From NCBI GenBank assembly GCA_001596155.1, contig CP014771.1, forward strand, positions 186,001 through 250,000: DNA of 64,000 nucleotides, given 5' to 3'. This stretch comes from Hymenobacter psoromatis. GTDB lineage: Bacteria > Bacteroidota > Bacteroidia > Cytophagales > Hymenobacteraceae. Numbering within the stretch: the first letter of the stretch is position 1; every line of letters starts with the position of its first letter. The translations under genes were made by a program, and so were the position numbers. Below are positions 30,235-62,373 of the stretch, one piece after another. The notes beneath the pieces are model-generated. The model did not search any database. It was not told where the DNA came from and saw nothing but the letters and a program-made list of their open reading frames with translations.

Positions 30235-31318
30235 ATGCAACTTTCCACTTCGACCCTTACTACCGAACGTAAATGGCGAGCAGCAACTGGCTTGACACAA
30301 GCTCGATTTGAAAAATTACTGACTCATTTTAAGCAAGCTTATTCGCGCTTATTTGATTTACAAATAGCTGACCGTGATGCTTTTGCCATTCATGAGTCCA
30401 TTATTAAAACGGAAGAAGAACTGCTGCTATTTACCCTATTTAGCTTTAAAGCCAGTTTAACTTACGATTTACTTGGTTTTGTAAGTGGGATGGATACCGC
30501 GAATGCTAAACGTTATCAAGACCGAGGAATTATGGTGCTTCAAGAAGCTTTAACACTGTCTGGTCATTTGCCTAAACGAGCGTTTGCTAGCGTAGACGAA
30601 TTTGAAGCTTATTTTAGCCAGCACGAAACGTTGTTACTAGACGGAACGGAACAACGGATACAACGACCGCAAGATTATACTACTCAGAAAGACTCGTATA
30701 GTGGTAAAAAAAAGCGAATACCTTAAAAGAAATAGTCATTGCTACTACCACTAGGTGGATTGGATTTTTAAGTCATTTTCAACCGGGAAAACAGCATGAT
30801 TATGGGTTACTTAAACAACTCTTTCCTGTTGATAAACAGTGGTTTAGAAAATTTACTTTTCAAGTACGCTAGTTAAAGCTATGCCCTTCAGGGCAAGACT
30901 TTAGTTGCTACTCACCTCTTCGCTATGAGCGCAGCTTGTTTCGTTATTTAGTAGGGAGCAATTTGTTCAACCGGCTTTAGCCGAAACCGCCGAATTTCAT
31001 TCGCCATCAAACCTATGGACTTACAGTCCATAGTCGTTTAGTGTTCGCCTGGATTTAGGATTTCTGGGGTTTGGTAAGGATTATAAGTGTCCTACCTATT
31101 TTCTACCAATTAAAAAACCTAAGGGAAAAGAATTGACCCTGGAGCAGCGAGCCCTAAATAAAGAACAGGCGAGTAAACGTATTATAGTGGAACATGCTAT
31201 CGGTGGCTGGAAACGTTATCGGATTTTGAGTGACCGTCTACGAATGCACGATTGGAAACGCTACGACAACGTGTTAGGAGTTTGTGCAGGGTTGTGGAAT
31301 TTTTATCTATGTCCTTGA
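30235..31318 (+). pseudogene. IS5-family DDE transposase, interrupted
   Basis: The first reading frame (30235-30726) gives 163 residues with the first catalytic Asp in LLLDGTEQRIQRP. A run of eight A (30706-30713) would allow a -1 shift into the second frame. That frame continues TLKEIVIATTTRWIGFL... up to KQWFRKF and is then broken at 30856 by the mini-element. It resumes at 31042 (VRLDLGFLGFGKDYK) and ends with the catalytic Glu region IIVEHAIGGWKRYR at 31318. It is almost certainly inactive, but copy 2 could mobilise it. Confidence 0.88.
30857..31041 (+). mobile_element. Mini-element A, non-autonomous IS200/IS605-like, nested in the IS5 copy
   Basis: 185 bp, inserted immediately 3' of TTTAC (30852-30856). 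Copy 2 of the IS shows the empty site (TTTAC then TGTTCGCC). There is no target duplication and no terminal inverted repeat. A left hairpin at 30875-30902 has outer AAAG/CTTT and inner GCCCT/AGGGC stems with an internal loop. A right hairpin at 31013-31033 pairs CTATGGACT with AGTCCATAG. The right end is GTCGTTTAG. It contains no gene. These are the features of single-strand (TnpA Y1) transposition. Confidence 0.85.
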
Positions 31319-31478
31319 CTTTCAAATCACAAAAAGTCTACTATATACTAGTGGCAAATGTATAATTGGTCAGCGCTGGGTAAGCTCACGCCTGCCCCTA
31401 CGCCACCACTATATACTGAGCGTACCTCTCTATTTTTTTTCCGCTGAGCTGTAGGCTTATCGGTTCATTCCCTCTCCC

Positions 31479-32450
31479 ATGCAAATCACCAATTTCCTCA
31501 AGCACCACTACCGCCACTTCAATGCCGCCGCCCTCATCGACGCGGCCGATGGCTACAACAAGCACCTCGCCGAAGGCGGCAAAATGATGATAACCCTGGC
31601 CGGTGCCATGAGCACCGCCGAAATGGGTATTCAGCTGGCTGAGCTGATTCGGCAGGATAAAGTGCAGATTATCAGCTGCACGGGTGCTAATCTGGAGGAA
31701 GATATCTTCAACCTCGTGGCCCACGACTTCTACGAGCGCGTGCCCAACTACCGCGACCTCACGCCCGCCGACGAGCAAGCCCTGCTGGAGCGCCACATGA
31801 ACCGCGTGACCGACACTTGCATCCCCGAAGAGGAGGCCATGCGCCGCCTGGAGCACGTGGTATTGAAGTTTTGGGAGAAGGCCGACAAGGCCGGCGAAGC
31901 CTATTTTCCGCACGAGTTTTTCTACCAGATTCTGCTGAGCGGCGAGCTGGAGCAATACTACCAGATTGACCCCAAAGACTCGTGGATGCTGGCGGCGGCC
32001 GAGAAAAACCTGCCCATCATCTGCCCCGGCTGGGAAGACTCGACGCTCGGCAACATCTACGCCGGCCACGTCATCACGGGCGATATCAAGAACGTGCACA
32101 CCATGCGCACGGGCATCCAGTACATGATTTACCTGGCTGAGTGGTACACCAAGCAGGCCACCGACGAGAGCAAGGTAGGCTTTTTCCAGATTGGTGGCGG
32201 CATTGCCGGCGACTTCCCCATCTGCGTAGTGCCCATGTTGCACCAGGACCTGGGCCGTACCACCGTACCACTGTGGGGCTATTTCTGCCAGATTTCGGAC
32301 TCCACGACCAGCTACGGCAGCTACTCAGGCGCGGTGCCGAACGAGAAAATTACCTGGGGCAAGCTGGGCGAGAAAACCCCGAAATTCATCATTGAGAGCG
32401 ACGCGACTATCGTGGCCCCGCTGATTTTTGCCATCGTGCTCGGGCAATAA
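31479..32450 (+). CDS. Deoxyhypusine synthase family protein
   Basis: A 323-residue protein of the deoxyhypusine/homospermidine synthase family, which uses NAD and spermidine or putrescine to form an enzyme-imine on a lysine. The catalytic lysine corresponds to K295 in ITWGKLG. Other family stretches are LAGAMSTAEMG, SCTGANLEEDIFN, FFQIGGGIAGDFPI and SGSYSGAVPNE-like (GSYSGAVPNEKITWG). Bacteria lack eIF5A, so a polyamine role (for example homospermidine formation) is plausible but unproven. It begins 140 bp after the IS element and ends 4 bp before the glycosyltransferase-like gene. Confidence 0.88.
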   Translation: MQITNFLKHHYRHFNAAALIDAADGYNKHLAEGGKMMITLAGAMSTAEMGIQLAELIRQDKVQIISCTGANLEEDIFNLVAHDFYERVPNYRDLTPADEQALLERHMNRVTDTCIPEEEAMRRLEHVVLKFWEKADKAGEAYFPHEFFYQILLSGELEQYYQIDPKDSWMLAAAEKNLPIICPGWEDSTLGNIYAGHVITGDIKNVHTMRTGIQYMIYLAEWYTKQATDESKVGFFQIGGGIAGDFPICVVPMLHQDLGRTTVPLWGYFCQISDSTTSYGSYSGAVPNEKITWGKLGEKTPKFIIESDATIVAPLIFAIVLGQ

Positions 32451-32454
32451 TTCT

Positions 32455-34486
32455 ATGCTGACTCCGCGCCCAGCGCCGGCTTCCAGCAGCTCAAACGCCG
32501 CCCCGGTCTCTAGCCCTACCCCCCCTCATAGGACCGGGTGGGGCCGGGTGGCCGGGGCGGCGTTGCTGCTTATAGGAATAGCGGCGCTGCTGGCCTACCT
32601 GCTCACGCCCTACCCCGCCCTGCGCGACTGGTACCTGCGCCGCACGCCCTATTTGTACCGCGCCGCCGCCTGGCCCCATGACTTTTTCACGCCCGCCGTG
32701 AAATCCCGCGGCAACTTGCTGGCGACGCTGGCTTTGGCGGCGCTGGTGGGGGTAGGGGCCTACGGATGGTGGGCGCGCCCGCGCCAGCCAGCCCCGGCTG
32801 CGCCGCCACTGCGCCTGCTGAGCCGCGCCGACCGGCCCTGGCTGGTGGGGCTGCTGCTACTGGCGGCGAGCCTGTGGGCCTGGGGTGCTACGCAGGTACC
32901 ACCAGCCTACGACGAAGTGTTTTCGGCGGTGTACTGCGCGGGTAATGAGTCACTCTTTGCGACCTGGAGCTACTACATGCTGCCCAACAACCACGTGCTG
33001 TTCAATCTGTTGAATAGCGGCTTGTTTGGCTGGCTGCACCGCCTGCCCTGGCTGGTGCCCACGGGCCGGCTGCTGTCGGGCCTGGCCTACGCGGGCACGC
33101 TGGCGGTGGTGTACCGGGTGGTGGCGGCCCTCACCGGGCGGCGGGGGGTAGGGGCGGTGTTGGCGGTGCTGGCGGGCCTGCAGTTTTCGCTATGGGGCTT
33201 CGGGTTTCAGGCCCGTGGCTATGCCTTATATGCGCTGCTACACTGGGTGGCGATAGGCACGCTGCTGGCGCACTGGCGGCAGCCCCGGCAAACTAAGTGG
33301 CTGACTATAAATATGCTGGCCGTGGCAGCGGGCTACGCGGTGGTGCCCACGTTCCTGTTCTACCACGCGGCGCAGCAGCTGGCGAGTGCGGTGGTGCAAC
33401 TGCGGCAGCGCCGCTTCGACGGCCGGTTCTGGCGCTATCAGGCGGGCGCGCTGGCGCTGGCGGGCGCGTTTTATTTGCCAATTATCGGTTTCTCGGGCCT
33501 GGCAGCGCTAGCGGCCAACCCCTATGTGCTGCCCTTTAAAGGCAGCCTGACCGAGTTCGTCATCAAAGCCTGGCCCGATGTGAAGAGCTACGCGCCGTAC
33601 GCGTTCGGCGAAATCGGGCTGGGGTCCTGGCCGGCTTATATCCTGATTTTACTTTTCAAGCACGCTAGTTAAAGCTATGCCCTTTAGGGCAAGACTTTAG
33701 TTGCTACTCCCTTTCGCCGGCCTTGCTTATGCAAGAACGGTCAATTTTTGATTGTCAGTTAGTTATTGCTCTTTGCCCAACGACTGACGCTAGCGTTTCG
33801 CCAGCAGAATTTCATTCTAGAGCGGCCCACTTTCAGTGGCTTCTTTCAGTCGGCTTTAGCCGAAACCGCCGAATTCCATTCGCTTTCAAACCTATGGACT
33901 TACAGTCCATAGTCGTTTAGTTCCCCTAACCCTGCTGGCGCACCGGCGCTACTGGCAGCTGGGGCTTTTGTACCTGGCGTGGCTGCTGGCCGTGGCCGGT
34001 GGCACGCTGGTGCTGCGGCACGTTATTTTTCACCGTAACCTGCTGGCATTCTTTAGCCTGGCGGTGGTGCTGGCTCCCCTCACGGTGGGCGTGTGGCTGG
34101 GCCGCTGGCGGCCGTGGGCCGGGCTGGCGGGCGCGTTGGTTATAATTGGGGGGGTAGGGCTGGGCTTCGTGCGCCACAACCCGGTGCGTGAGCCGCTGGC
34201 TTTGTATTACTGGAATCTGCAGGTCGGCTTCGACGCGGCGCAGCAGCGGCTGGCCACGTTGCCGGGCTGGGCGGCTTCCGTAGATTTCTCGCAGGAAAGC
34301 TTCTACCCGTATTTTCTTTACCGGCGGGCCGGCGGGGTGGCCCCGCATCCGGCGCAGCACCCGGCCCCGGCCGCCGATTACTTTATCACGGCTCCCAACG
34401 ACGCGCTGCCGCCCGCCCTGGCCGGCCGCTACCAGCCCGTTGATACCGTCGGGACGTACCGGCTGTGGCGGCGCAAAGTATTGTAG
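32455..34486 (+). pseudogene. GT-C-type membrane glycosyltransferase-like gene, split by mini-element B
   Basis: Removing 33653-33920 joins ...AYILILL to PLTLLAHRRYW in one frame of 587 residues. With the element present, translation stops at 33672 after LFKHAS. The joined protein has about ten hydrophobic segments, an acidic DE pair in a loop after an early helix (PPAYDEVFSAVY) and an ARGYALYALLHW stretch, as in GT39/ArnT-like polyprenyl-phosphate sugar transferases. The C-terminal soluble part ends YRLWRRKVL. Start at ATG 32455, 4 bp after the deoxyhypusine synthase-like gene, suggesting one operon. The activity is inferred from topology only. Confidence 0.85.
33653..33920 (+). mobile_element. 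Mini-element B, non-autonomous IS200/IS605-like
   Basis: 268 bp, inserted 3' of TTTAC (33648-33652) with no target duplication. The first roughly 60 bp and last roughly 75 bp match mini-element A with few changes. The left hairpin is at 33671-33697, the right hairpin (CTATGGACT/AGTCCATAG) at 33892-33912, and the right end GTCGTTTAG at 33920. The middle differs from A and is longer. An open frame at 33723-33920 runs to the tip but is not a recognisable protein. Confidence 0.85.
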
Positions 34487-61393: not shown

Positions 61394-62373
61394 AGACTTG
61401 TTGTGATTTGAAAGTCAAGGACATAGATAAAAATTCCACAACCCTGCACAAACTCCTAACACGTTGTCGTAGCGTTTCCAATCGTGCATTCGTAGACGGT
61501 CACTCAAAATCCGATAACGTTTCCAGCCACCGATAGCATGTTCCACTATAATACGTTTACTCGCCTGTTCTTTATTTAGGGCTCGCTGCTCCAGGGTCAA
61601 TTCTTTTCCCTTAGGTTTTTTAATTGGTAGAAAATAGGTAGGACACTTATAATCCTTACCAAACCCCAGAAATCCTAAATCCAGGCGAACAGTAAATTTT
61701 CTAAACCACTGTTTATCAACAGGAAAGAGTTGTTTAAGTAACCCATAATCATGCTGTTTTCCCGGTTGAAAATGACTTAAAAATCCAATCCACCTAGTGG
61801 TAGTAGCAATGACTATTTCTTTTAAGGTATTCGCTTTTTTTTACCACTATACGAGTCTTTCTGAGTAGTATAATCTTGCGGTCGTTGTATCCGTTGTTCC
61901 GTTCCGTCTAGTAACAACGTTTCGTGCTGGCTAAAATAAGCTTCAAATTCGTCTACGCTAGCAAACGCTCGTTTAGGCAAATGACCAGACAGTGTTAAAG
62001 CTTCTTGAAGCACCATAATTCCTCGGTCTTGATAACGTTTAGCATTCGCGGTATCCATCCCACTTACAAAACCAAGTAAATCGTAAGTTAAACTGGCTTT
62101 AAAGCTAAATAGGGTAAATAGCAGCAGTTCTTCTTCCGTTTTAATAATGGACTCATGAATGGCAAAAGCATCACGGTCAGCTATTTGTAAATCAAATAAG
62201 CGCGAATAAGCTTGCTTAAAATGAGTCAGTAATTTTTCAAATCGAGCTTGTGTCAAGCCAGTTGCTGCTCGCCATTTACGTTCGGTAGTAAGGGTCGAAG
62301 TGGAAAGTTGCATAACCTAAGCGGAAATATATTTCTCACAAATTTACGTCACCTTGTACCTCGCAACAAGTCT
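61394..62373 (-). mobile_element. IS5-family insertion sequence, copy 2 (980 bp), intact
   Basis: AGACTTGTTGTGATTTG at one end and the inverted CAACAAGTCT at the other, with a 3-bp direct repeat AAT on both sides (61391-61393, 62374-62376). Near identical to copy 1 and in the opposite orientation. It contains the complete two-frame transposase. Low GC compared with the chromosome. Confidence 0.94.
61415..62313 (-). CDS. IS5-family DDE transposase made by -1 frameshift
   Basis: Frame one (62313-61822, 163 residues) begins MQLSTSTLTTERKWRAATG and contains the first Asp (LLLDGTEQRIQRP). Frame two continues after a -1 slip at a run of eight A (about 61835-61842) and ends at 61415. It includes KQWFRKFTVRLDLGFLGF, with the second Asp, and IIVEHAIGGWKRYR, with the Glu. 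The fused product is about 299 residues, the usual size for this group. This is presumably the active source enzyme for both copies. Confidence 0.88.

Follow-up and report, generated by a model that had tools for sequence, protein, structure and literature searches.

The window analysed here, 64,000 nucleotides of Hymenobacter psoromatis DNA (assembly GCA_001596155.1, contig CP014771.1; C3:186001-250000 of a 5.45-Mb genome in three contigs), contains two short elements, A (185 bp) and B (268 bp), that carry no transposase gene, which raises the question of how they move and what moves them. A first-pass annotation, made from the letters alone, proposed single-strand transposition of the IS200/IS605 type by a Y1 transposase supplied in trans. 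Comparison with the rest of the genome and with 120 genomes of the genus makes it almost certain that A and B are non-autonomous single-strand transposons of the kind described as palindrome-associated transposable elements (PATEs) or IS200-derived miniature inverted-repeat transposable elements (MITEs), belonging to one IS200/IS605-type family with a 609-bp parent.

Base-level reading placed A at 30857-31041 (equally 30858-31042) and B at 33653-33920 (equally 33654-33921 or 33655-33922), both on the plus strand, as are all features below unless stated. The left ends have 62 nt in common (97% identical, with the preceding TTTAC counted in) and the right ends 77 nt (94% identical, with the trailing T counted in), while the middles are unlike each other. 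Subterminal hairpins are predicted at either end of both elements: on the left at 30879-30897 in A and 33675-33693 in B, and at the right terminus at 31013-31033 and 33892-33912, where the fold is accompanied by covariation. The first-pass description of two real elements with hairpins, similar ends and divergent middles was thus confirmed.

A full element bearing tnpA, for which the first-pass annotation had suggested a search, was found in the same genome. This parent has the same ends as A and B and is present in at least six complete copies with an open tnpA, its sole recognised gene, which encodes a Y1 transposase of 142 residues (130.7 bits against the Y1_Tnp profile). A parent with an unrelated recombinase had been named as evidence that would count against the proposal; the recombinase found is a Y1 TnpA. 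Structural relatives include the TnpA proteins of ISDra2 (2xm3, E 1.8e-23) and ISHp608 (2a6m, E 6.3e-18), and the closest relatives among named records are from Hymenobacter. An HIH motif and a tyrosine (Y125 by our count) align with what we take to be the HUH motif and catalytic tyrosine of 2xm3. The residue four past the tyrosine is, by the same count, histidine; passages of PMC6006769 give glutamine at this position in IS608 and asparagine in TnpAREP. Judged from its end sequences, with no separate search, the parent has no terminal inverted repeats.

A search of the genome with A gave 63 matches, and 40 of the 51 candidates were scored, so copy numbers are lower bounds. At least 27 complete copies at distinct sites were recognised by base-level reading: 18 of the 268-bp B, six of the 609-bp parent and three of the 185-bp A. 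The three A copies are identical, as are ten of the 18 B copies to one sequence. B comprises two subtypes about 21 differences apart, the rarer being represented by the B of the window, C1:88478 and C3:3981775. Four of the six parents are identical, one has 2 differences and one has 91. As A and B are nearly clonal, their spread looks recent. Outside the 27 stand a B and a parent interrupted by other DNA, a decayed B (C3:3781269), a decayed parent on contig C1 with three TAG codons, and two B copies on contig C2. The last two were left uncounted because C2 looks like, and probably is, an assembly artefact: almost from end to end, this 6421-bp contig is an inverted duplicate of itself (99.8%), and it also repeats the surroundings of C3:3981775.

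Some copies lie close together. The interrupted B adjoins a parent: at C3:3492655-3494543 a parent abuts it head to tail, and the other insertion that this B carries comes about 38 bp into it. The arrangement fits a parent inserted at TTTAC|T ahead of an existing B, and since that explains the tandem, the idea of an insertion after TTTAG was dropped. Three pairs of copies are spaced by about 2.5-2.6 kb in unrelated DNA (C3:216857-219920, which is A and B of the window; C1:85813-88745; C3:754591-757708). With the tandem there are four pairs no more than 3 kb apart against 0.67 expected (p 0.006, noticed post hoc), and a B of the window type lies downstream of two of the three A copies. Left-end bases 7 and 9 in three copies (L013, L015 and L025) are a mix of parent and B types, hinting at exchange between ends.

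Empty sites were available for both elements of the window. A interrupts an older insertion sequence (30235-31330 is the stretch compared, not its mapped ends), an unbroken copy of which lies on the minus strand at 61403-62313 and is identical to the joined flanks of A at 911 of 911 bases; another copy, identical to near completeness, lies at C3:627261-628171. B splits a gene (32455-34486) that looks membrane-protein-like from its hydrophobic translation, has no Pfam match and regains an open frame when the flanks are joined. In a sister species (G058) the B site reads GATTTTACTTCCCC, with no insert and flanks about 86% identical. The more distant G080, G104 and G011 also have no insert, their junctions being diverged and having no TTTACT. 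At the exact empty sites of A and B, the two sites tested (neither a parent site), no target duplication was found, as the first-pass annotation had claimed.

Its further claim, that insertion follows TTTAC (30852-30856 for A and 33648-33652 for B, each then followed by T), stood for 26 of the 27 complete copies; the other follows TTGAC. The base after the right end is T in all 27, compared with 22% of 1634 background TTTAC words, and the last five bases of the element, by copy comparison the right cleavage site, are TTTAG in all 27 (31037-31041 in A, then T; 33916-33920 in B). Ten more complete copies in other genomes follow TTTAC in eight cases and TTGAC in two, and all ten have T past the right end. 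The two TTGAC copies have the same flanks in G072 and G073. These ten were found by a TTT[TA][GA][GA]-type end pattern, which left out copies with other ends, among them 350-bp and 394-bp mini-elements ending in TTTAC. Because T follows both ends, the cut may fall before or after it, which leaves an uncertainty of one base (two for B). From these comparisons the insertion site is read as TTTAC|T or TTTACT|. A preference for the base past the cut is known: parts of PMC5934647 put it at about 70% in IS608 (TTAC|C) and at about 90% in ISDra2 (TTGAT|G).

The left guide of IS608, AAAG, is matched to the site TTAC (passages of PMC5934647). Here the foot of the left hairpin is AAAG against TTTAC and that of the right hairpin is AAAC against TTTAG, so that sites and guides differ between the two ends by a matching C/G exchange. 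The putative left guides, each 5′ of its hairpin foot, are at 30875-30878 (A) and 33671-33674 (B) and the putative right guides at 31009-31012 and 33888-33891, all four being assigned by guide/site covariation. Relatives vary in step: on the left TTGAC is found with CAAG, TTTAT with AAAA and TTGAT with CAAA, and on the right TTAAG with TAAC and TTGAG with CAAC. In a table of 58 rows (30 left, 28 right) compared with 20,000 shuffles, site base 3 was complementary to guide base 1 in 51 rows (shuffled mean 34.3) and site base 5 to guide base 4 in 53 (mean 21.1), and no shuffle scored as high in either case. The pooled base-5 score is largely a left/right difference, so the ends were also scored separately. 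Left ends gave 27/30 for guide base 1 with site base 3 (mean 18.1) and 27/30 for guide base 4 with site base 5 (mean 14.4), and right ends 24/28 for the former (mean 16.4), again with no shuffle as high; for guide base 4 with site base 5 the right ends (26/28, mean 26.0) carry no information. The covariation is natural support for a principle already known from IS608.

The composition of the table bears on these counts. Among the mismatches counted are own copy L029 and the G072/G073 site, where TTGAC stands against AAAG, and right ends in which TTTAG faces TAAC or CAAC. Omitted, as being the same element as one already in the table, were L099, L101, L104, L106, L107, L108, L110, L113, L114, L116, L118, L196, L216 and more G073/G082 sites. 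Other omitted ends would match, namely left ends L065, L072 and L219, right ends L049, L050, L054 and L058, and right ends L207, L210 and L217 (TTTAA with AAAT); left ends L207, L210, L217 and L220 would be base-3 mismatches if their site is TTAAT. Right ends L037, L062, L063, L219 and L220, together with L064, L122/L209, L127, L128, L130, L208 and L218, were left out as decayed, of another type or unlocatable by eye, and the table is also without L211 and L212.

The copies tend to be oriented along the inferred direction of replication. Parents, A and B were pooled into a set of 25 chromosomal insertions (broken copies included and the parent/B tandem taken once), of which 13 are plus and 12 minus, with six sign changes round the circle (p 0.007). 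If such genes run with the fork, the rRNA operons at 2.01 (minus), 2.92 (minus) and 4.60 Mb (plus), rpoB at 3.77 Mb (plus) and rplB at 3.78 Mb (plus) would confine the origin to the interval 2.92-3.77 Mb. Across the origins set by these markers, 18 to 22 of the 25 copies (mean 19.7) point with the fork, with permutation p values of 0.0002 for the mean and 0.0008 for the best. This test supersedes an earlier one on 26 copies with free breakpoints, which gave 23-24 fitting (p 0.0015). Pointing with the fork places the hairpin-bearing strand in the lagging-strand template, so the bias is as expected for lagging-strand transposition, given an origin deduced from five gene markers. TTTACT words, summed by hand over ten sampled blocks per arm, number 20 plus and 25 minus in the plus arm and 25 and 27 in the minus arm; as they are not skewed in that way, the strand of the available sites does not explain the bias.

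The first-pass annotation had also suggested that the middles result from internal exchange or from repeated deletion of a larger parent; the comparison did not demonstrate the former. Of the 120 genus genomes, 19 had matches to the ends when B was the query and 19 when it was A, the lists differing slightly (at most six candidates were scored per genome). Among them are an A-like mini-element in G056 (187 bp, 86% identical to A) and two of about the size of B, one of 255 bp in G058 and one of 253 bp in G048. Deletion was seen, by eye, in a 394-bp relative in G115, which is the parent with an internal deletion between CAAAGACC repeats in tnpA. For A and B it is only deduced. B retains about 60 bp of the left end and about 115 bp of the right, beginning at the hairpin made by the final codons of tnpA, and A retains about 60 and 76 bp; the middles (about 50 bp in A, about 90 bp in B) do not align to the parent. 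The start of the right module of B is also found in the mini-elements of G058, G048 and G072, whose middles cannot be aligned. The B of the window folds better than its shuffles (DNA z -5.6). A conserved structure in its middle was considered and dropped, as the middle takes another fold in the second B subtype and cannot be aligned in G058 or G048. The middles of A and B look like unconstrained filler. The 350-bp mini-element of G072/G073 has an inverted repeat in its middle; this element (L072 in G072) and the 394-bp one (L059 in G115) end in TTTAC in place of TTTAG. Searches of a plasmid collection with A and B, and of a phage collection with B only, gave no match.

It seems very likely, on this evidence, that the TnpA of the 609-bp parents would bind the hairpins of the top strand, with the guides at their feet (AAAG left, AAAC right) pairing with the cut sites TTTAC and TTTAG. 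A single strand would leave, presumably as a circle, and be reinserted 3′ of TTTAC, before T, in exposed lagging-strand template, with no duplication. The shared ends and the copy number suggest that the parental enzyme acts in trans on A and B, and the mobilisation in trans proposed at first pass is supported by the existence of a parent that shares their ends and whose Y1 gene is open.

What the genomes themselves display is the parent and the copies, the empty sites, the rule for the site, the covariation of guide and site, and the bias in orientation; the movement of A and B, present activity included, is deduced from such comparison. Several points weigh against this account. The guide table was scored by eye in knowledge of the rule, its rows are kin by descent and some of the copies are decayed; mismatches amount to 7/58 at base 3 and 5/58 at base 5. 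Simple deletion does not explain the middles of A and B. GC skew is weak (60 sampled 20-kb blocks), with best breakpoints at about 0.9-1.9 and 5.0 Mb, away from the marker-based origin, and dnaA maps to 0.88 Mb.

The right end holds further hairpins, whose role might be read in other ways. In A these are CGGC/GCCG (30972-30983) and CGAAT/ATTCG (30991-31003), and in B the same two (33851-33862 and 33870-33882), all supported by covariation. B has in addition CCAC/GTGG (33827-33839) and, at the start of the right module, a hairpin matching the last codons of the parent tnpA (33806-33818; paired in 98% of cells). Four helices, with 25 pairs in all, were compared across 20 distinct right ends and were paired in 97.2% of cells. 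Two-sided changes occurred in seven pairs (15 cells), which was reached in 0/500 shuffles, against 0-2 pairs in slid controls; the number of further pair types was unremarkable (102/500 shuffles), and the tnpA-end helix showed no two-sided change in the 20. The fifth hairpin, CCAC/GTGG, was at the expected place or within 2-3 nt of it in 18/20 by a per-sequence stem search without controls, the exceptions being L103 (another stem) and L105 (a shifted stem). By these patterns the hairpins beyond the terminal one are evidently kept as structures, whether DNA or RNA. It is conceivable, though rather unlikely, that the hairpin chain is a separate working module, RNA or single-stranded DNA, for example regulating TnpA or shielding the strand, and is kept because the mini-elements use it; A and B would then be regulators or parasites of the parent and not inert deletion products. 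A narrower proposal, that the right end is an omega-RNA for TnpB or another structural RNA with mobility secondary, could draw on the same several hairpins with compensatory changes in the right 75-115 nt, but single-strand DNA folding accounts for that covariation equally well. The TnpB domain PF07282, the only family searched, so that a TnpB lacking it would be missed, has no match in the genome and occurs in 5 of the 120 genus genomes (4 over the cut-off), and Rfam gave no match in 30700-34000 up to E = 1. The omega-RNA role, raised as speculation at first pass, was therefore not borne out, and an RNA function of this kind is improbable.

Still less probable is that A and B are REP/REPIN elements mobilised by a REP-associated tyrosine transposase (RAYT). 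Such systems also have Y1-type enzymes and hairpins with guide tetranucleotides, according to parts of PMC6006769, and the genome has two further Y1_Tnp matches, open frames of 193 and 228 residues. The parent TnpA, however, is over the NCBIfam IS200/IS605 transposase equivalog cut-off (134.3 bits against 55) and under the RAYT one (21.9 against 80), and the copies have two fixed unlike ends, sit at exact insertion sites and have a parent that carries tnpA. Classical MITEs dependent on a DDE transposase, with double-strand cutting, terminal inverted repeats and target duplication, are likewise short, multi-copy and without a gene, but the two exact empty sites have no duplication and full elements with these ends bear a Y1 transposase, which leaves practically no room for this explanation.

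The single-strand transposon family is of a kind already described, and is a new example that is unusually well documented by its own genome. In the parts of PMC3119063 that describe them, the PATEs of Haloquadratum walsbyi likewise have near-terminal palindromes and ends akin to IS605-type elements, and lack a transposase gene, terminal inverted repeats and target duplication, some having arisen by repeat-mediated core deletion; their parents are mostly disrupted, whereas the Bacteroidota host here has a tnpA-only parent in six complete open copies. Archaeal IS200/605-derived MITEs, as tabulated in PMC3852290 (IR 0, DR 0), are also short, multi-copy, repeat-less and tied to an IS200/605 parent, but are from other hosts and of other sizes (368, 418 and 570 bp). 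A PATE-like, ends-only IS605 element of Halanaerobium hydrogeniformans, described in a passage of PMC7290912, is similar in its size (about 271 nt) and its left-end hairpin, gene tail and full right end, and differs in that one sequence is reported and the tail comes from tnpB. IS608 and ISDra2, by the relevant parts of PMC5934647 and PMC6006769, share the Y1 TnpA, end hairpins, guide/cleavage pairing (IS608 GL AAAG, CL TTAC), insertion 3′ of a short site with a preferred +1 base, and the lagging-strand template, whereas IS608 carries tnpB. The present family differs from both in its site, TTTAC|T, and in the additional right-end hairpins, of which A has two and B up to four. ISDra2 also carries tnpB. 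In the open-access literature searched, no paper was found on IS200 in Hymenobacter, or on IS200 with MITE and tnpA in Bacteroidetes. The family leaves the understanding of such elements as it was. It is a clear-cut natural case in which a parent, its mini-elements, their empty sites, the covariation of guide and site, and the strand bias can be seen together. It could serve as a bacterial model for trans-mobilisation and guide-directed targeting, and the mini-elements suggest minimal end needs of about 60 nt on the left and 76 nt on the right.

Two further features of the window were also recognised. Between A and B lies a deoxyhypusine synthase-like gene (31479-32450; PF01916, 142.9 bits, under the NCBIfam equivalog cut-offs), and 57391-57493 matches the Bacteroidales small signal recognition particle (SRP) RNA (RF04183).

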